The notes under the pieces are model-generated. The model searched no databases and was not told the origin of the DNA. It was given only the letters and a program-made list of their open reading frames with translations. A stretch of 50,183 bases of DNA. Origin: Candidatus Kaiserbacteria bacterium (GTDB lineage Bacteria > Patescibacteriota > Minisyncoccia > Phycocordibacterales > Phycocordibacteraceae). How positions within the stretch are numbered: the first letter of the stretch is position 1; each line of letters opens with the position of its first letter. Where the stretch lies: NCBI GenBank assembly GCA_016194455.1, contig JACQBN010000028.1, positions 1 to 50,183 of the forward strand, written 5' to 3'. Below, piece after piece: positions 1 through 49,581 of the stretch. The position numbers and the translations under genes were made by a program.

Positions 1-372
1 GAAGAAGAAGATTGCGTCCACGCTTGGGATAGTGCGCTGCGGATTTACCTACAGCACGCCCTCGCGAGGCCGACCGGAATCCAATTACCGGCGGCGCCTA
101 CAGCAGTCCGTCACTCCATCGCCCATAAAAACGGTCACGGAATATTAACCGTGTGTCCATCGGGTGCGGCTCTCGCCATCCCCTTAGGCCCGACTAACCC
201 TTAGCTGATCACCATGGCTAAGGAAACCTTGGTCTTTCGACGTGCGGGGATCTCACCCGCATTGTGGTTACTTGTACCGGCATTCTCACTTCCATACGCT
301 CCAGGACGGGTCACCCCTTACCCTTCATCGCGAATGGAACGCTCTCCTACCGCTTGTGCACTTCACAGAGGA

Positions 373-390
373 GGCGAACTGAAGTTCGCC
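373..390 (-). other. Hairpin between the tRNA-like element and the IVS closing helix
   Basis: GGCGAACTTCAGTTCGCC is self-complementary (7 bp with a TTCA loop). Confidence 0.7.
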
Positions 391-399
391 AAGTTTGTT

Positions 400-474
400 T
401 GGCAGGAACGGGTGGGATTCGAACCCACCTACCCCCCGGATCCGGGGCGCTCAACCAGCCGAGCTGCCGTCCCT
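400..474 (-). ncRNA. tRNA-like element inside the 23S IVS (degenerate anticodon arm, CCA encoded)
   Basis: rc AGGGACGG-CA-GCTC-GGCTGGTT-GAGC-GCCCCGGATCCGGGGGGTAG-GTGGG-TTCGAAT-CCCAC-CCGTTCCT-G-CCA. Acceptor, D and T arms are well formed; the anticodon region is the palindrome CCCCGGATCCGGGG with no normal 7-nt loop or U33. Confidence 0.75.
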
Positions 475-496
475 ACACCAAACAAACAAAAGAACA

Positions 497-568
497 TTAC
501 AGGTTAAATACAAAGCCGATCAGGGCGACAATCTGAACGAGCATCACGATATTGTCGACTCGACGCAT
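497..568 (-). CDS. Putative 23-aa hydrophobic micro-peptide MRRVDNIVMLVQIVALIGFVFNL encoded inside the 23S IVS
   Basis: ATG...TAA of 24 codons; AGGAG six nt upstream (AACAGGAGATAAATATG); product looks like a single transmembrane helix after a charged N-terminus. Confidence 0.45.
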   Translation of the reverse strand: MRRVDNIVMLVQIVALIGFVFNL

Positions 569-1577
569 ATTTATCTCCTGTTGTTTTCCTCTATGAAGCG
601 CACAAGCCCGCAATTTCGGCACTACGCTTAACCCCGATCATCTTCGGCGCAAGGATCCTCGATGAGTGAGCTGTTACGCTTTCTTTAAATGGTGGCTGCT
701 TCTAAGCCAACATCCTCATTGTCGAAGGACCCTCACTTCCTTGTGATGTACTGAGCGTAGATTTTGGGGCCTTAATTTGCGATCCGGGCTCTTCCCCTCT
801 CGACGCGTGGAGCTTCGCCCCCACCGTCTAACTGCCGCGCGGAGCAGAGGGTATTCGGAGTTTGATAGGAGCCACGAGATTTCTCCCTGTTGGCCCCTTC
901 CAGTGCTCTACCCCCCTCTGCACATATCGCGACGCCAGCCCAAAAGCTGTTTCGGAGAGAACCAGCTATTCCCAGATTCGATTAGCTTTTCACTCCTTGC
1001 CACAAGTCATCCCAAGACGTTGTACGATCTACGGGTTCGGGCCTCCATCCGCATTTCTGCGAACTTCACCCTGCTCATGGCAAGCTCATCTGGCTTCGGG
1101 TCGTATGTATCCTACGAACGCGCTGTTAACGCTCGGTTTCCCTACAGCTCCACCCCGGAGGGGCTTAGCTACGCAGGATACACACACTCGCCGGCTCATT
1201 CTTCAATAGGCACGCGGTCGTGGTGAACCCCTTGCGGGGAACCCATTCCCACCCTTTGTAAGTGCGCGGTTTCAGTTCTATTTCACTCCCCTCTCGGGGT
1301 TCTTTTCACCTTTCCCTCGCGGTACTGGTTCACTATCGGTCATAGGATGTATGCAGCCTTGCCGGTTAGTTCCGGCAGATTCACTCGAGCTAATCGTGTC
1401 TCGAGCTACTCAAGAACAGGAGCAAGAGTCGTCAGGCATTTCGCGTACGGGGCCATTACCCTCTGGGGCGCTGCTTCCCAGCAGCTTCCGCTACGCCGAC
1501 GATTGATAACTCTTCTCGTACAAGTACGATGTTCCTGTCTTACAACCCCTCCCTCCGAAGAAGGAGGTTTGGGCTTC

Positions 1578-1608
<31 letters not shown>

Positions 1609-1948
1609 ACAATTGTTCTCTTTTCCTCCAGGTACTGAGATGTTTCACTTCCCTGGGTTTGCTCACGCAAGCGTTACCCCGCGTGTTTCCCCCATAGGGG
1701 GATGGGTTTCCCCATTCGGAAATCTCCGGATCACAGGCTACAAACCGCCTCCCCGAAGCATATCGCCGGTTAGTCGCGTCCTTCTTCGCCATCCTAGGCC
1801 AAGGCATCCGCCGCGCACTCTTTAACGTCTCCCGTGCGGAGACCTGCATATCACGATCACTTTATTTTATTGCACTTCACGCCGCCCCCTGCTTCAGGAG
1901 CGGCTTACTATGTATGCGTATTCATTTGTCAAAGGTCGCGCGCCGTCG

Positions 1949-9315: not shown

Positions 9316-12300
9316 CTACTTGGAGTAGCTCGTCGTGTTCGTGGTGAAGTCCTTGAGGAGGAAGCCGCCTGCCCAGTCACTGGTGCCGGTCGTGTGGCCG
9401 GGTGCCGAGCGATCAGACCAGACCGTGTTCTTACCCACTCCCGCCGCGGTCGTCGGAGTGACGAAGCCGCTGTCAGAGGCAAGGCTAAGCGAGATGGTGC
9501 TGCCGGTCGTGTAACCAGCAACCGTCGCGTAGAGGTCGTAGATCTTGCTCGAGCCCGCAGCGATTTGCTGGTACTTCGCCTGCGTCGCGTTCTGCGTCAA
9601 GTCGATCGTGATCGAGTTGATCGTTGTCGATGCAGACGTAGTCGTGTTGTCGAGCAGGTTCACGGACGGAGCGGCCTCATCAACGAGGTACGCGTTCGAG
9701 AGCTGGTCCGCCGTCGCAACCGTATCGGAGGTCGCAACGTTGAACTTCAAGTGCGTCCACTCGACTGCGCCTGCCGGATCAGCAGTGATGCTGAAGCGGT
9801 AGAGAGCCGAGCCGGACGAAGGCACAGTCGACGGAGCCGCCAACATCGCAAAAGTCGGAATCGACTTGAAGACGTAGAAGGTGCCGTTAGAGGCCAGGTT
9901 CGGGCCGCTCGTGCCAGAGCCGGTGCCGTTCACGTTCGTGAGCGGCGTACCAGCAGCGTTGATCGAACGGAAGTCGTTGTTCGCACCGCTCGTGCCGCCG
10001 CCGCTGATGAGGGCGTTGATCGCCGCACCAGAAGTGGCACCCGAAGCGACTGTCGGCGTACCGACGAAGACGTCGATGTTAGACGAGTCGTTGGTCGGGA
10101 CGTAGAACTGAAGACCGGTGAAGGTCGCCGTTGCATACGGGTAGGTTGCGGTAATCGCCAGCGCCTGTGTTGCCGTCTGGGTTGCGCCGTTCTGGTCCTT
10201 GTAGGAGACCGTCACGTTCGTCACCGAGGTGGCTACCGCGTTCGGGATCAGGACCGCGAGGTTCTGGACCGTGAACGCGGAGTTCTGCGCCGCGAAGTTG
10301 AACTGAGCAACCTTGACCGAGCTTGCGCCCGCGACGACGTTGTTGGATGTAGGATCACCCGCACCACGCGTCACCGAGAGCTTGCCCGTTCCCACTGTAA
10401 TCGTCTGGAGCGCCACGTTTGAGCCAGCCGTTGGGCCGACTGCAGCGGACGTCCCAGTCGTGTCCCCGACACCGCTCGTGGTGTAATCCACGGTCGCGAT
10501 GACAGGGCCTGCGTTCGCTCCCGAGAGGATGTTCGCGTACACGTCGATGGTCTTCGTCGAAGACATCGCAATGTCGGAGCTCAAGGAGAACGAGTTGCCG
10601 GTCGAGGGCGTCGTGATGGTCGTGCCGAGCGTTGCGCCCGTCGCGTCATCCTTCAGCCAGAGGTTCGTGAGCGAGGCGGCGTTCGCAGCCGTCAGGTTGA
10701 TCACGATGGTGTTGACCGTCACGCCTTCCGTAGAGCCGGTCGAGAGCGTGAGGGCACCGATCTTGGCGTTCGTCGTGCCCGGAATCATGGCTTGTGCGCC
10801 ATAGCCCGAGTACTTCGTAGCCGTCAGGGACGAGTTCGTGACCGTGATGAGCTGCGCCGCGACGTCAGTCGTCGAAGGCACGTTCACCGCGTTCAGCGAG
10901 CTCTGTCCTTGCGCGTTCGAGGTCGACGCCTTGAGCGAGACCTTGACCGTTGCGGTGGTCGAGAGGTTCGCGTTGATGCTTACCCCGCTACCCACCTTCG
11001 CGTCGCCGTAGATGTCAACCATCGTGTTGATGCCGGCCGGGAGGATCAGAGAAGAACCAAGCGCGAAGTCTGTGGCCGCGCCAGTACCTTCCCCAATTGC
11101 CTTCGTCGAGCCGACTTGGATACCGTTCACGAAGACCTTGCCGTTCGCGAGGCCGCCGTGAGTCTCACCGCCCGTGCCCGCGACCGTGTCCGCGAAGACA
11201 TTGAGGTCGTTGACCTTGACCTGCTCACCGGAAGCGAGAAGGTCGAAGCTGCCCCACTTCACGTTCGAAGCGCCAACGGCGACATTCTGAGTCGGAGAAG
11301 CAGGATCCTTGGAGACCGAGACGCCGGAGGTGCCGCTGACGAACGCGATCGTGATCGCGCCGCCGGAAGTGACCGCACCGAAGGTCGTGGTCGAAGGAGC
11401 AAGCACCGGAGTGACCGGCTGGTTCAACTGACTGTCAACAAAGAGCGCGTCCGAGGAGCGCTGCACCGAGAACTGGATGGTGCGGTTGCTGCCTCCTGCG
11501 ATATTCGCGAGCACCTTGATGACGTGGCCCTGCGTCGAGAGAGTCATCGGGCTCGCCGAGAGGTCGAAGGTGATCGAGCGGTCGCCTGCCATAGCAGGAA
11601 CCGCTGAACCGACCTGCGTGCCGTCGACATAGAGCCGGAGATTCACGAGGTACGCACCGTCAATAGAACCGAGGTTGGTGAACCGCATAGACCAGATCTT
11701 GACCGGATTGGTGGACACGTTGACCGTGTTCTGCCAGACCGGGTAGTCGTTCTGCGGGCTGATAGTCGTCGCTGCAGCCGGGATGGTCGTCGCGTTGAAC
11801 GAGACCGTTGCGAGATTCGCCGCAGAGACTGTCTGGAATCCGCTGTTGATCGGGAAGCTGACCGAAGAGTCAAGCGTGCCCGATGAGCTGACCGAGACGA
11901 GGCTCGCGCCGATCTGCTGGCCGGACGTGCCGCCGAGGATGTCTGCGCGCACCGATGCCGTGAAGGTGCCTCCCGGGGCTACCCAGAAGATGCCGCCCGG
12001 ATTGGTGAACGAGAACGACGAGTTGCTGACACCTGCCGAGTCGGTGAGGCGCATGACTCCGTTGTAGAGATACACGTTGTTCAACGTGGAGTCATTCGAG
12101 ACGCCGATGCGGTGGAAGGTCAGGCCCGTGACGCTAACCGCAGAGCCGGTCGGGTTGACGAAGGTGAAGTCACCGAGGTCGCCAATACCCTGACCCTGCA
12201 CGAGGACTGTGCCGTTCGGCGAGGTCGGCGAGAGCACGACCCGCAGGCCGTTACCCGTCACCGGAACCGTCGTCGTAACCGGACTGCCCGTGAAGGCTGC

Positions 12301-12615
12301 GCGACTCTTCGGGCCGAAGTATCCGGCTGTCGGAGAAACGCCTGCCGCCTTCTGCCACGCGCTCACTGCAGCCTTGGTCTGGTTACCGAAGTAGCCAGTC
12401 GCACCTGCAGGAATCGAGTAGCCGTTCGCAATAAGCGCATTCTGGAGGCAGGTGACGTCTGCGCCCTTCGAACCGACCGTGAGGTCTTTCGTGAAGGTGC
12501 AGGACGCTACCGCCGCGTGCGCGTAGGGCGCGAGCGAGAGCATCGAGGTCGCTATCGCGAGTCCCGCTGCCACCGCTGTCACCTTTGCGATCGCTTTCGT
12601 AGTTACTGTTTGCAT
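9316..12615 (-). CDS. 1099-aa surface (S-layer-like) protein with N-terminal peptidoglycan-binding domain
   Basis: Signal peptide, VTCLQNALIANGYSIPAGATGYFGNQTKAAVSAWQKAAGVSPTAGYFGPKSRAAF, then repeated Ser/Thr-rich beta-sandwich-like segments. Confidence 0.8.
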   Translation of the reverse strand: MQTVTTKAIAKVTAVAAGLAIATSMLSLAPYAHAAVASCTFTKDLTVGSKGADVTCLQNALIANGYSIPAGATGYFGNQTKAAVSAWQKAAGVSPTAGYFGPKSRAAFTGSPVTTTVPVTGNGLRVVLSPTSPNGTVLVQGQGIGDLGDFTFVNPTGSAVSVTGLTFHRIGVSNDSTLNNVYLYNGVMRLTDSAGVSNSSFSFTNPGGIFWVAPGGTFTASVRADILGGTSGQQIGASLVSVSSSGTLDSSVSFPINSGFQTVSAANLATVSFNATTIPAAATTISPQNDYPVWQNTVNVSTNPVKIWSMRFTNLGSIDGAYLVNLRLYVDGTQVGSAVPAMAGDRSITFDLSASPMTLSTQGHVIKVLANIAGGSNRTIQFSVQRSSDALFVDSQLNQPVTPVLAPSTTTFGAVTSGGAITIAFVSGTSGVSVSKDPASPTQNVAVGASNVKWGSFDLLASGEQVKVNDLNVFADTVAGTGGETHGGLANGKVFVNGIQVGSTKAIGEGTGAATDFALGSSLILPAGINTMVDIYGDAKVGSGVSINANLSTTATVKVSLKASTSNAQGQSSLNAVNVPSTTDVAAQLITVTNSSLTATKYSGYGAQAMIPGTTNAKIGALTLSTGSTEGVTVNTIVINLTAANAASLTNLWLKDDATGATLGTTITTPSTGNSFSLSSDIAMSSTKTIDVYANILSGANAGPVIATVDYTTSGVGDTTGTSAAVGPTAGSNVALQTITVGTGKLSVTRGAGDPTSNNVVAGASSVKVAQFNFAAQNSAFTVQNLAVLIPNAVATSVTNVTVSYKDQNGATQTATQALAITATYPYATATFTGLQFYVPTNDSSNIDVFVGTPTVASGATSGAAINALISGGGTSGANNDFRSINAAGTPLTNVNGTGSGTSGPNLASNGTFYVFKSIPTFAMLAAPSTVPSSGSALYRFSITADPAGAVEWTHLKFNVATSDTVATADQLSNAYLVDEAAPSVNLLDNTTTSASTTINSITIDLTQNATQAKYQQIAAGSSKIYDLYATVAGYTTGSTISLSLASDSGFVTPTTAAGVGKNTVWSDRSAPGHTTGTSDWAGGFLLKDFTTNTTSYSK

Positions 12616-12985
12616 AACGTTGTTAATGGTTTTAAGCGCACATGGTTAATCAAGTTGATTGAGAGCACACGCACTTTCACACTACCCCACAGCCGGCGGT
12701 ATCGACCTGCCGGTCATGGGTTAGTTGGTAAGGGTTAGTGCGGCCTCAAGACAGGCCGCTATTCGGTTATCAAAGACCCGCCCTAGAGAGTAATGTGCCC
12801 CCGCTAGGACTCAGTGAGAGTATAACGGAGCACAAGCACCCTCGCGTTATTTGCGTGTGGATAACCCTAAAGAGGCAGAAACGACAAAAAGGCCGATTCC
12901 GGCCCTTTCTTCCGCCCCTATTCCCCCTTAGTCGCTACCACCCCCAGATCCTAACAAATGCGAGTTCGGGAGTCAAAGCATCCGG

Positions 12986-13774
12986 CTAGATTATTGGCTC
13001 CGCTAGAGAGTATGTACTCCAACGGCGTTCCCCTTTCTTAAGGACAACTCCACTCGCGACGAGGATCTGCAGTTCTCGCTGTATGGTTTTCTCGCTTAAA
13101 CTCGGCATTATTGTTGAAATGTCCTTTATAGTTGCGTGTCCTTTGTCCTTTATGACCGATAGAACTGATTCTTGGCGATTGCTTTGTCCTATGTCCTTTA
13201 GATGTCCTTTAGGCGCGATTTGAGGAGTGTAGGATGGGGCCTTGATGCTCGGCACGGGAGTCTTCGCGCGCTTGCTGGCGTGCCGCATCATCTGTGCGAG
13301 GGTTGGTGCGTCCTCAAGGAAGAGGCGCGGCTCCTCATAGGCCGCGACCTCTTGGAGCAGCAATTGCGCCTCGCGGGAGATAAGTTCGACGTTCATTGTG
13401 GAGAGGAATCCGCCCGCCCGCGCGATCGCGAGCACGCTCGAGAGCGCGAGGAGCTCGCGCGCAAGAGCGGTCCGCGCGCCCGCCGAAGAAAGCACGGCTG
13501 CATCGATAAGCCCTACGGCGATGGCGTCAATGCGGTTCTTCAAGGACATTGATTCGGCGAATGCGGGGGAGATGAGGTGGATAGCTTTGGCAAGTCTCTC
13601 GGTCTTTTTGTATAAGAATACTCGCTGTATGTCCTTTTCAAATATGTTGGAAAATATGCTTTTTTCTAGGACAAATTCTTCTACAGATGTAGTTTTTGGG
13701 CGAATGTTCGCGAGCTTCGTTCCCTCCCCTTGTCCTTTATCAAATGCTATGTCCATAAGGCTTGTATCGGACAT
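12986..13774 (-). CDS. Regulator-like protein with C-terminal winged HTH
   Basis: Start at MSDTSLMDIAFDKGQGEG; C-terminus IKDISTIMPSLSEKTIQRELQILVASGVVLKKGERRWSTYSL. Confidence 0.65.
   Translation of the reverse strand: MSDTSLMDIAFDKGQGEGTKLANIRPKTTSVEEFVLEKSIFSNIFEKDIQRVFLYKKTERLAKAIHLISPAFAESMSLKNRIDAIAVGLIDAAVLSSAGARTALARELLALSSVLAIARAGGFLSTMNVELISREAQLLLQEVAAYEEPRLFLEDAPTLAQMMRHASKRAKTPVPSIKAPSYTPQIAPKGHLKDIGQSNRQESVLSVIKDKGHATIKDISTIMPSLSEKTIQRELQILVASGVVLKKGERRWSTYSLAEPII
13120..13738 (-). repeat. Seven perfect TGTCCTTT (AAAGGACA) octamers in the regulator-like CDS
   Basis: TGTCCTTT at 13120, 13137, 13144, 13192, 13203, 13630 and 13731, plus near-matches at 13185 and 13750. Confidence 0.9.
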
Positions 13775-13866: not shown

Positions 13867-16056
13867 ATGAGCCGCGCACAGAGAAGACGCCGAGCCGCTG
13901 CACGAGACCGGGACGCAGAGGTTGAGGAATACGACACCGTCGTCCGCTGGGCCTCCGCGGTGGTGTTCCTCGCGACGGGGGTGTTGCTTGCGCTTGCGGT
14001 CACCGGGAACGCGGGGCCTGCGGGGCGCGCGGCCTTCAATCTGGCATATACGATTGTGGGTATTGGCGCGTTCTTGCTCCCCATTGCTCTTATCGCTATC
14101 GGGCTCTATGCGGGTTTCAGGCGTCCGGTGCTCGCTCCCTTAACTGCATCGGGAGTTGCAATCATCTGTGCGAGCGCGCTCGCCTTCGCCGGGCTCTTCC
14201 CGGGAAGTACGTTTGGCGGAGCGGCGGGGAGTTGGGTGGGCGGAGTGCTCGAAAACTTCTTCGGCTTCTGGGGTGCGCTCGTGCTCTTGATCGCGGTGTT
14301 CGCCATCGGCTTCGTCATTGTGACCGACATCGAACAGATTGTGGAGATTGTCTGGGGTTGGCTCGGAGCACTCTGGAGCCGCGCGCAGTCTCTCCATACC
14401 GAACAAGAAGGCGAGGAGCCGCTCGAGGATTTCAGCGATGTCGTTGGCGTACCAGAAGAGAGTGCGGACGAGCGGGGCGTGGGAGTTCTTGAACACGAGC
14501 CGGTAGTAAATGTCTTCAACGCTCCCCCTCCCGCCGTCAGGAGCGTGCGCCGAGGTATCGCAGAGTTTGATGCGGAGTATACTCCGCCACCGCTCTCCAT
14601 CCTTGGCGGCGATAGGGGCAAGCCCGGCGTGGGCGACATCAAGGCGAACGCGAACATCATCAAGCGCACCTTCCAGAACTTCGGCATTGATGTGGAGACG
14701 GACGAGGTGTCGGTAGGGCCCACGGTTACGCGCTATGCGGTCAAGCCCGCGGAGGGGGTGCGCCTCTCCAAGATTGTTTCTTTGGCGAGCAACTTGGAAC
14801 TCGCACTCGCAGCACATCCAGTGCGCATCGAGGCGCCTATCCCGGGCAAGTCGCTCGTAGGCATCGAGGTGCCGAACTCAGTTAAGGCAACGGTCGGACT
14901 CGGCGGGCTCCTCATAGCCCCCGAGTGGACCGCGAGCCCGAAACCCTTGCTCGCGGCGCTCGGCCGCGACATCAGCGGCACGCCCCATTACGTCAACATT
15001 TCTAAAATGCCCCACGGCTTGGTCGCTGGCGCGACCGGCTCGGGCAAATCAGTTGCCATCCACTCACTCATCACTTCCCTTCTCTACCGTAACGGTCCTA
15101 ATCAGATGCGGCTCATTCTCATTGATCCTAAGCGCGTGGAGCTCACAATGTACAATGGCATCCCGCATCTGCTGACCCCCGTGATTACCGACCCGAAGAA
15201 AACAATCCTCGCGCTCAAGTGGGCGGCCAAAGAAATGGAGCGCCGCTACAACATCCTGGAGGCCGAAGGTGTGCGCGACATTGACTCGTACCATTCCTCG
15301 GTGGTCGAGCCCGCACGCAAAAAAAAGGACGTGGATCAGCCCGAGGCGATGCCCTACATCATCATTGTCATCGACGAGCTTGCGGACATCATGTCCACCT
15401 ATCCGCGCGAGCTCGAGGCCTGCGTGGTGCGGCTCGCGCAAATGTCGCGGGCGGTGGGCATCCACCTTGTACTCTCCACGCAGCGACCGTCGGTGAACGT
15501 GATCACCGGCCTTATCAAGGCGAACGTGCCGGCCCGCATGGCGCTCCAAGTCGCCTCCCAAGTAGATTCGCGTACCATCCTCGACGGCTCGGGCGCGGAG
15601 ACCCTGCTTGGCGCGGGCGACATGCTCTATCTCTCGAGCGACATGCAAAAGCCAGTGCGACTCCAGACGGCGTTTATCAGCGAGCAGGAGGTAAAGAGGA
15701 TCGCGCACTACATCAAGACCCATAACACGGGCGATCTCTCCGCGATTGATATGGGCGGGGGCGGCATCATCGCGACCGGACTCGAGGACACTATCGGTAT
15801 CGCCTCGATGAATGATGACGACGAAATAGACGACGAACTCTACATCGCAGCGAAAGCCGCAGTCGAACAAGTTGGCCGCGCCTCAACGTCGTACCTGCAG
15901 CGCAAGCTCAAGATCGGGTACTCGCGCGCGGCGCGGCTTATGGACGTGCTCGAGAGCCGCGGCGTCATTGGCCCGGCAGACGGCGCCAAGCCGCGCGAGG
16001 TTCTCTCACGAGGCGGTGCGGCCGCTCCCGCCGCGCCGGAGGACGAGTCGTTTTAA
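13867..16056 (+). CDS. ftsK: DNA translocase FtsK/SpoIIIE
   Basis: N-terminal TM region; Walker A VAGATGSGKSVAIHS; C-terminal gamma domain. Confidence 0.95.
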   Translation: MSRAQRRRRAAARDRDAEVEEYDTVVRWASAVVFLATGVLLALAVTGNAGPAGRAAFNLAYTIVGIGAFLLPIALIAIGLYAGFRRPVLAPLTASGVAIICASALAFAGLFPGSTFGGAAGSWVGGVLENFFGFWGALVLLIAVFAIGFVIVTDIEQIVEIVWGWLGALWSRAQSLHTEQEGEEPLEDFSDVVGVPEESADERGVGVLEHEPVVNVFNAPPPAVRSVRRGIAEFDAEYTPPPLSILGGDRGKPGVGDIKANANIIKRTFQNFGIDVETDEVSVGPTVTRYAVKPAEGVRLSKIVSLASNLELALAAHPVRIEAPIPGKSLVGIEVPNSVKATVGLGGLLIAPEWTASPKPLLAALGRDISGTPHYVNISKMPHGLVAGATGSGKSVAIHSLITSLLYRNGPNQMRLILIDPKRVELTMYNGIPHLLTPVITDPKKTILALKWAAKEMERRYNILEAEGVRDIDSYHSSVVEPARKKKDVDQPEAMPYIIIVIDELADIMSTYPRELEACVVRLAQMSRAVGIHLVLSTQRPSVNVITGLIKANVPARMALQVASQVDSRTILDGSGAETLLGAGDMLYLSSDMQKPVRLQTAFISEQEVKRIAHYIKTHNTGDLSAIDMGGGGIIATGLEDTIGIASMNDDDEIDDELYIAAKAAVEQVGRASTSYLQRKLKIGYSRAARLMDVLESRGVIGPADGAKPREVLSRGGAAAPAAPEDESF

Positions 16057-48867: not shown

Positions 48868-49581
48868 TTACTGACCAATTACGAGAGTAGAAATGATCCT
48901 ATCTCTCGTAGAGTTTCCACTTTGGTCGTCATCGTATAAGAATTTCTTATCTCCACTTGTTGAGATAGCCAAAATACTTTTATTGGGTAGCTCTACAAAG
49001 TACCAACCAACATCGGCATCATAGTGAGAAGATGAAGCAAACCTTATACGAGCCACTTTATAACCACCAGCTTGAAAGTATTTTGGCGAACCCCAGCCAC
49101 CACTTGTCACTGATTTCGATACATAACTTTCAAAGCTATTTTCAGAATTTACTTTCTTAAAAAACTCTATGCGCAATCCACGATCACCAAAAGCTCCAGT
49201 CGGATTAAATTCAAAGAATCCTCCCCAATCTTCAGAGATGTTTCCAGGACGATTTGTGTTACGAGACGAAATCAGCGTCGGATTACTTCCGAATAGAGAA
49301 GGATACTTAAAAGTTAGATTGGGCAAGATTCCCGATTCAATCGAAGAATATGTGTACGAATTCCAAGATACAGTTTCATCTTTTACAACAGGAGTGGGAG
49401 TGGGGGTGGGGGTTGGTGAAGTTGTACGAGTTGGCGATGTGTTGGTTATTGGAGACGGAGTTTGTGCGACAGGTTCGGACTTCTTTGTAAGAACAAAGTA
49501 TCCAACTGCACCAACTAAAAGGACAACGACTATAATCAAAACAATATTCGCAAATCCTTTTTGGTTTATATGATAATTCAT
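48868..49581 (-). CDS. Exported single-TM protein with TP-rich linker
   Basis: NQKGFANIVLIIVVVLLVGAVGYFVLTKK...TRTTSPTPTPTPTPVV; lies between the inverted-repeat arms. Confidence 0.75.
   Translation of the reverse strand: MNYHINQKGFANIVLIIVVVLLVGAVGYFVLTKKSEPVAQTPSPITNTSPTRTTSPTPTPTPTPVVKDETVSWNSYTYSSIESGILPNLTFKYPSLFGSNPTLISSRNTNRPGNISEDWGGFFEFNPTGAFGDRGLRIEFFKKVNSENSFESYVSKSVTSGGWGSPKYFQAGGYKVARIRFASSSHYDADVGWYFVELPNKSILAISTSGDKKFLYDDDQSGNSTRDRIISTLVIGQ

Follow-up and report, generated by a model that had tools for sequence, protein, structure and literature searches.

Repeated octamers in a winged-helix gene of a Candidatus Kaiserbacteria genome: putative DNA sites of an autoregulated protein that recur near DnaA boxes

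Why should a single octamer occur seven times inside one regulator-like gene, and in more than one reading frame? The window (the whole stretch of DNA that was analysed, 50,183 nucleotides from Candidatus Kaiserbacteria bacterium, an ultra-small member of the CPR) contains exactly eight copies of TGTCCTTT, a number never attained by any dinucleotide shuffle (expectation 0.81 per whole window). Seven of them are inside a winged-helix gene (Table 1), all reading AAAGGACA in the sense orientation of this minus-strand gene, and the eighth is on the minus strand at 49518.

The octamers and the gene that contains them

The seven exact copies listed in the preliminary description were all recovered at the positions given in Table 1. 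Relative to the open frame, four occupy frame 2 and three frame 0, which bears out its view that a single peptide repeat is insufficient, and five of the seven match the extended consensus TAAAGGACA. The position of site 2 is also retained in locus L025 and in many orthologues. The antisense site at the gene start was absent from the earlier list; its variant is also in use at the cca-xth locus described below. That description had noticed no copies elsewhere, which holds for the window except for 49518 and fails for the genome, where 24 octamers were counted in 603,616 bp (9 for the reversed control), 7 of them in the regulator gene and 8 in a 2-kb stretch of another contig (C17, 24802-26847). 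Statements about the genome as a whole are based on fetched stretches and on pattern searches. The octamer does not recur as a general motif of the genome, the other condition under which the preliminary description would have been refuted. A DNA uptake sequence, Chi or KOPS would be dispersed or polar and number in the hundreds per genome, and was rejected because the 604 kb contain only 24 octamers, of which 15 are in two loci.

The regulator is predicted by AlphaFold2 (mean pLDDT 68, domains about 85-90) to consist of an N-terminal four-helix bundle (residues 31-145), a disordered linker (150-196) and a C-terminal winged helix (198-257). Pfam and NCBIfam place the winged helix near DeoR, below their cut-offs (HTH_DeoR, E 0.0023 and 18.1 bits for the window protein, under the 21-bit cut-off; E ≤ 0.1 in 22 of 23 orthologues, best 2.2e-6). 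The C-terminal sugar-phosphate-sensing domain of DeoR gave no match, the winged helix itself being C-terminal and the N-domain a helical bundle, and a response-regulator receiver domain is absent according to Pfam and AlphaFold2, which give the helical bundle and winged helix instead. Homology to Rep or RctB initiators was not detected (no Pfam or NCBIfam match, no PDB sequence match), no ParB domain was identified by Pfam in the regulator or the orthologues tested, and the PDB holds no solved relative by sequence. Fold searches returned only weak, non-significant matches, to various winged helices (AspA and MecI among them) and to S23-family bundles; the AspA match of the winged helix (E about 0.03) is equalled by unrelated winged helices. 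The regulator fits no characterised family found in these searches.

The divergent ftsK remarked upon earlier is a constant neighbour: all 50 orthologues with sufficient flanking sequence have it upstream of the regulator. Adjacent to the regulator gene there is ftsK and no ParA partner. On the other side, most of the orthologues listed are followed by a similar secreted protein, and 45 of 52 orthologues have a lone TTATCCACA within 600 bp after the regulator stop, in every case with the orientation of the regulator. In the window this DnaA box precedes a TATACT-like -10 belonging to the next gene; in the examples inspected, a TATAAT-like -10 follows the box at some 35 nt. The secreted product is possibly a DnaA-controlled surface protein.

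Two incidental results concern the same stretch. A partial 23S rRNA gene at the window end (1-1834, minus strand) matches model positions 1-1582 only. A LexA/SOS link, recA being nearby, was rejected: a LexA-like feature is absent, and the literature searched contains no Patescibacteria LexA system with such a site. Nor is such a site described among the matches listed in a literature search for the octamer string.

Table 1. Coordinates in the window of the regulator gene, its neighbours and the putative sites
Feature	Position	Strand	Basis or remark
Large secreted protein, peptidoglycan-binding-like N-terminus, next gene downstream	9316..12615	-	sequence resemblance, no family search
DnaA box TTATCCACA, about 124 bp downstream of regulator stop, same orientation	12856..12864	-	
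Regulator gene, 262 aa	12986..13774	-	ORF list
Site 7, TAAAGGACA, wHTH-coding part	13120..13127	-	
Site 6, one-base overlap with site 5	13137..13144	-	
Site 5, linker/wHTH, TAAAGGACA	13144..13151	-	
Site 4, linker cluster, TAAAGGACA	13192..13199	-	
Site 3, linker cluster, TAAAGGACA	13203..13210	-	
Site 2, AAAGGACA within AAAAGGACA, codes EKDI	13630..13637	-	
Site 1, AAAGGACA within TAAAGGACA	13731..13738	-	close to gene start
Extra broad-class-consensus site TATCGGACA, antisense, overlaps start codon	13765..13773	+	sequence, context list
ftsK, divergent neighbour	13867..16056	+	ORF list

Conservation of the sites in orthologues and across the class

Orthologues were gathered by protein similarity alone (51 of 59 relatives), and yielded 50 usable ORFs, which represent the genus together with about 20 further families of its order. 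Nucleotide-level conservation was computed directly: AAAGGACA is present in 49 of the 50 ORFs, with 152 sense and 6 antisense copies, compared with 27.3 (sd 5.0) and 1.6 after synonymous-codon shuffling within each gene, a procedure that preserves the protein and its codon usage. The octamer persists in orthologues with only 25-35% protein identity, so the absence from homologous CPR genes that would have refuted the preliminary description is not encountered. The broader pattern TAWHGGACA behaves likewise (139 sense and 24 antisense copies, against 17.1 and 2.2 in synonymous shuffles), and 59 of 65 KG[H/Q] motifs are spelled AAAGGACA. Because the synonymous shuffles give far fewer copies, the encoded peptide cannot account for the octamers, and a peptide repeat is ruled out as their cause. 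Clustering within the gene, also computed directly, follows the concentration near both ends that had been proposed from the single sequence: sites are found around the gene start in 41 of the 50 orthologues, in the 3' part in 46, and in both in 37, the 3' cluster mostly coding for the disordered linker. A match in rplO (L167), attributable to the KGHKGQ motif of ribosomal protein L15, was set aside as protein-driven.

Across the class the site is TA(A/T)(A/C/T)GGACA, i.e. TAWHGGACA, which takes the form TAAAGGACA in this order and clusters in the regulator gene throughout the order and also in families of the class beyond it; outside the order the gene bears TAATGGACA, TAACGGACA, TATCGGACA or TATTGGACA, GGACA being constant. 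The sites are non-palindromic, and their spacing is variable rather than fixed in the analysis of long contigs. Of 191 genomes sampled from the class, about half give a match to the orthologue profile at E ≤ 1e-6 (the weakest being to the winged helix only), and the recognition-helix region (S)EKTxQR is nearly invariant in the alignment across the same range as the class-wide sites. Gene and sites co-occur, again by direct computation, with same-orientation double sites in 25 of 30 genomes that have a strong orthologue versus 3 of 20 that have no match (reversed-pattern control, about two matches in 50 genomes). One of those three gene-less genomes, G062, belongs to a family in which other members have the regulator gene, and some gene-bearing genomes (G176, G120, G182, G211, G114) have no double sites. 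What has been retained, as the surrounding protein diverged to about 25% identity, is a class-wide regulatory code within coding sequence.

The octamers might be put down to chance, to a repeated peptide, or to a polar, uptake or recombination motif spread over the genome, the copies being short and the two frames yielding KGH/KGQ and KD peptides; these readings can be set aside with near certainty in view of the synonymous shuffles, the concentration of copies in two loci, the existence of non-coding copies and controls near zero. Action at the RNA level, whether through binding of AAAGGACA in its own mRNA by the protein or another factor or through AAAGGA as internal Shine-Dalgarno-like pauses, would suit the fact that 152 of the 158 octamers in ORFs are sense, but it is very improbable. 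The sense excess is explained by coding, since AAAGGACA encodes hydrophilic residues (KGH/KGQ/KD) suited to the linker and TGTCCTTT does not; antisense consensus sites are enriched about 11-fold in ORFs (24 vs 2.2); the class variants TATCGGACA and TAACGGACA no longer fit a Shine-Dalgarno sequence; and intergenic copies run in both directions around DnaA boxes. Two counts over 79 genomes of the order gave mixed-orientation pairs of non-coding copies in 37 and 24 genomes, whereas the controls gave them in 0 and 3. The presence of both orientations is a directly computed result; on sequence evidence, the enrichment of antisense copies in ORFs and the two directions of the non-coding copies tip the balance towards DNA sites rather than RNA sites. 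An internal Shine-Dalgarno or RNA site is disfavoured by the same class variants and antisense enrichment. As to known RNA elements, Rfam gives only rRNA and tRNAs in the window and in loci L025 and L026.

A second cluster at cca, xth and yraN and its DnaA boxes

A second conserved cluster is found in many families at cca (tRNA nucleotidyltransferase) and its neighbours xth (exonuclease III family) and yraN (UPF0102). In this genome, with genes named by Pfam, it comprises copies in the cca gene, in the gap between the 3' end of cca and convergent xth, and upstream of yraN; the gap reads TAAAGGACA n5 TATCGGACA ... TTATCCACA n3 TGTCCTTTA n3 TGTCCTTTA, its sites pointing inwards around the perfect DnaA box TTATCCACA. 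All 20 distinct cca-xth loci are convergent, and in 15 the gap contains a DnaA box (TTATNCACA), as a rule 10-12 nt away from where an AAAGGACA starts, in the composite arrangement AAAGGACA-N2-4-TGTGGATAA. These loci were found through the motif, and their site counts are not an unbiased sample. In family f61 and its relatives the sites occupy the gap between yraN and either cca or a thyX-like gene, next to two or three DnaA boxes in tandem, which they sometimes overlap (TGTCCTTTATGCACA). This cluster near DnaA boxes goes beyond what the window of the preliminary description could show.

Adjacency to DnaA boxes and location in the origin region were both computed directly. In the 1.42 Mb of long contigs taken for skew analysis, a site lies no more than 30 bp from 4 of the 26 strict DnaA boxes, the expectation being 0.09. 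The distance from cca/xth to dnaA is 30-43 kb in all seven genomes that have both on one contig, and cca/xth is within the zone of GC-skew sign change in G037, G283 and G248 and, less sharply, in G049 and G030. The skew resolution is only 30-50 kb, the zone also contains dnaA, and in most of this order cca/xth has only one strict DnaA box, fewer than a typical oriC. The cluster is termed 'origin region' here, without a claim to 'oriC', because of this resolution, because the cumulative-skew minimum of G248 is 29 kb from cca/xth, and because the best DnaA-box cluster of G049 is at dnaA. Long N runs that start 2-8 kb beside cca/xth in two genomes (G283:C1 528001-600000 and G030:C1 608001-672000) limit the skew analysis there.

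Sites were also encountered at other genes. Four genomes of two other families have TAWHGGACA clusters inside ORFs for ComFC-like phosphoribosyltransferases (L377 1978-2676, L382 2431-3090, L372 1841-2575 and L386 2194-2826; Pfam Pribosyltran confirmed for L377 only), hinting at a link to competence. In family f34, rsmA (rRNA adenine dimethylase), beside a pcrA-like helicase gene, contains four to five octamers (L161 2489-3295 and L163 2169-2978), and two unrelated genomes have site clusters just upstream of ORFs resembling REP-associated tyrosine transposases (L119 3150-3219 and L366 2466-2519), of which that of L366 has no Pfam match at 1e-5. The further targets (ComFC-like, priA, xerC/D-like, alkD, rsmA and nrdG) are suggestive only, their loci having been chosen by motif without an unbiased enrichment test.

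A putative circuit, its alternatives and the closest known systems

The best explanation, with a probability of roughly 0.58, is that the octamers are non-palindromic DNA sites of the encoded winged-helix protein, which would repress its own gene and act with DnaA at the origin. The regulator would bind several sites at the 5' end and in the linker-coding part of its gene, and would repress itself, probably by promoter occlusion together with looping or a roadblock. It would also bind the origin-region cluster at cca/xth/yraN, where sites flank or overlap DnaA boxes, and would be expected to assist, block or time DnaA, whereby replication initiation would be tied to ftsK and neighbouring genes. 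The regulator as the binder, repression and the action on replication are all three inferred, and since the sites are not evenly spaced, a neat dimer geometry that would back one binder is lacking. The preliminary description, which had proposed nucleotide-level sites of an autoregulated helix-turn-helix protein, is supported, having withstood each test that was run, although actual binding is unproven.

It is doubtful, although possible, that the protein is instead an ordinary autoregulated transcription factor with a small regulon in replication, repair and competence, such that sites beside DnaA boxes would merely control cca, yraN or xth and closeness to the origin would be incidental. The wing and the fold, which resemble those of DeoR-, MecI- or ArsR-type repressors, are compatible with this, as are sites upstream of yraN in several families and sites elsewhere within or next to priA, an XerC/D-type recombinase gene, alkD, nrdG and ComFC-like genes; but that wider gene list comes from motif-picked loci, the most conserved extra cluster is between convergent genes, where a promoter is unexpected, and sites flank or overlap DnaA boxes far above chance. 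That a different, unidentified protein binds the sites, the winged-helix gene being merely their best-conserved target, is unlikely but cannot be neglected while binding is undemonstrated and the link from gene to site is a correlation only. Against it, a DNA-binding protein that targets its own gene is the most economical reading, gene presence tracks the double sites, and the recognition-helix region is nearly invariant. Little weight is given to a centromere-like role, in which the regulator, as a ParB-like partner on clustered sites near the origin, would serve chromosome segregation in the manner of parS sites: the presence of clusters both in the origin region and within the regulator gene itself, the invariably divergent ftsK and the weak AspA-like fold matches would agree with it, but the sites are non-palindromic with variable spacing, no ParA partner adjoins the gene, and the fold matches are non-significant.

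If the octamers are sites of the winged-helix protein, the gene and the origin-region sites together point to an undescribed replication or cell-cycle control circuit; no control of replication initiation in Parcubacteria was described in the literature searched. It is suggested only tentatively that in Parcubacteria (CPR) a second origin factor is associated with DnaA. This would be a winged-helix protein that represses itself, has iteron-like TAWHGGACA boxes, controls initiation of the main chromosome and is genetically coupled to ftsK, in a lineage-wide circuit that differs from those of model bacteria. A very large, poorly understood share of bacterial diversity consists of CPR bacteria, and with a named gene, an exact site and genomic targets, the origin location, cooperation with DnaA and autoregulation are testable in vitro without culturing.

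Among known systems, the DeoR, MecI/BlaI and ArsR repressors share the winged-helix fold and the expectation of autorepression, but the Pfam scores of the regulator are under curated cut-offs and an N-terminal four-helix bundle of S23/IVP-like shape replaces the sugar- or metal-sensing domain. Sites of the parS type cluster near the origin and within the gene of their own binder. The parS/ParB and AspA systems resemble the present one in the placement of clusters and, weakly, in the AspA-like fold of the winged helix, but ParB and ParA are lacking here, the sites are non-palindromic and no fold match is significant.

Similar in manner is HP1021, an atypical response regulator of Helicobacter pylori with boxes at oriC2 and at promoters (PMC8266642): in both systems short non-palindromic boxes occur several at a time near DnaA boxes, at the chromosomal origin or, here, in the origin region, with others near other genes, and a DNA-binding protein acts on both replication and transcription, which for the regulator is inferred. 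They differ in protein architecture (here a four-helix bundle, disordered linker and DeoR-like winged helix), in the box (KGTWDCD versus TAWHGGACA) and in that the densest cluster here is inside the protein's own coding sequence. A dual regulator like CtrA or HP1021 would bind boxes at oriC that adjoin or overlap DnaA boxes; sites in such positions are present here in the origin region, although binding to them remains undemonstrated. RctB of Vibrio chromosome 2, which represses its own gene and whose sites accompany a DnaA box at ori2 (PMC6090056), and the initiators of iteron plasmids are similar in their short direct and inverted repeats beside a DnaA box and in further sites at the initiator's own gene, from which autorepression and titration would follow naturally, although for the present sites a place at the origin itself is supported by skew only to 30-50 kb; in contrast, dnaA is present and the main chromosome is concerned here, there is no regular helical-phase iteron array, and the regulator has no sequence similarity to Rep or RctB. 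By analogy, the regulator may work like HP1021 or RctB, yet it is a member of neither family.
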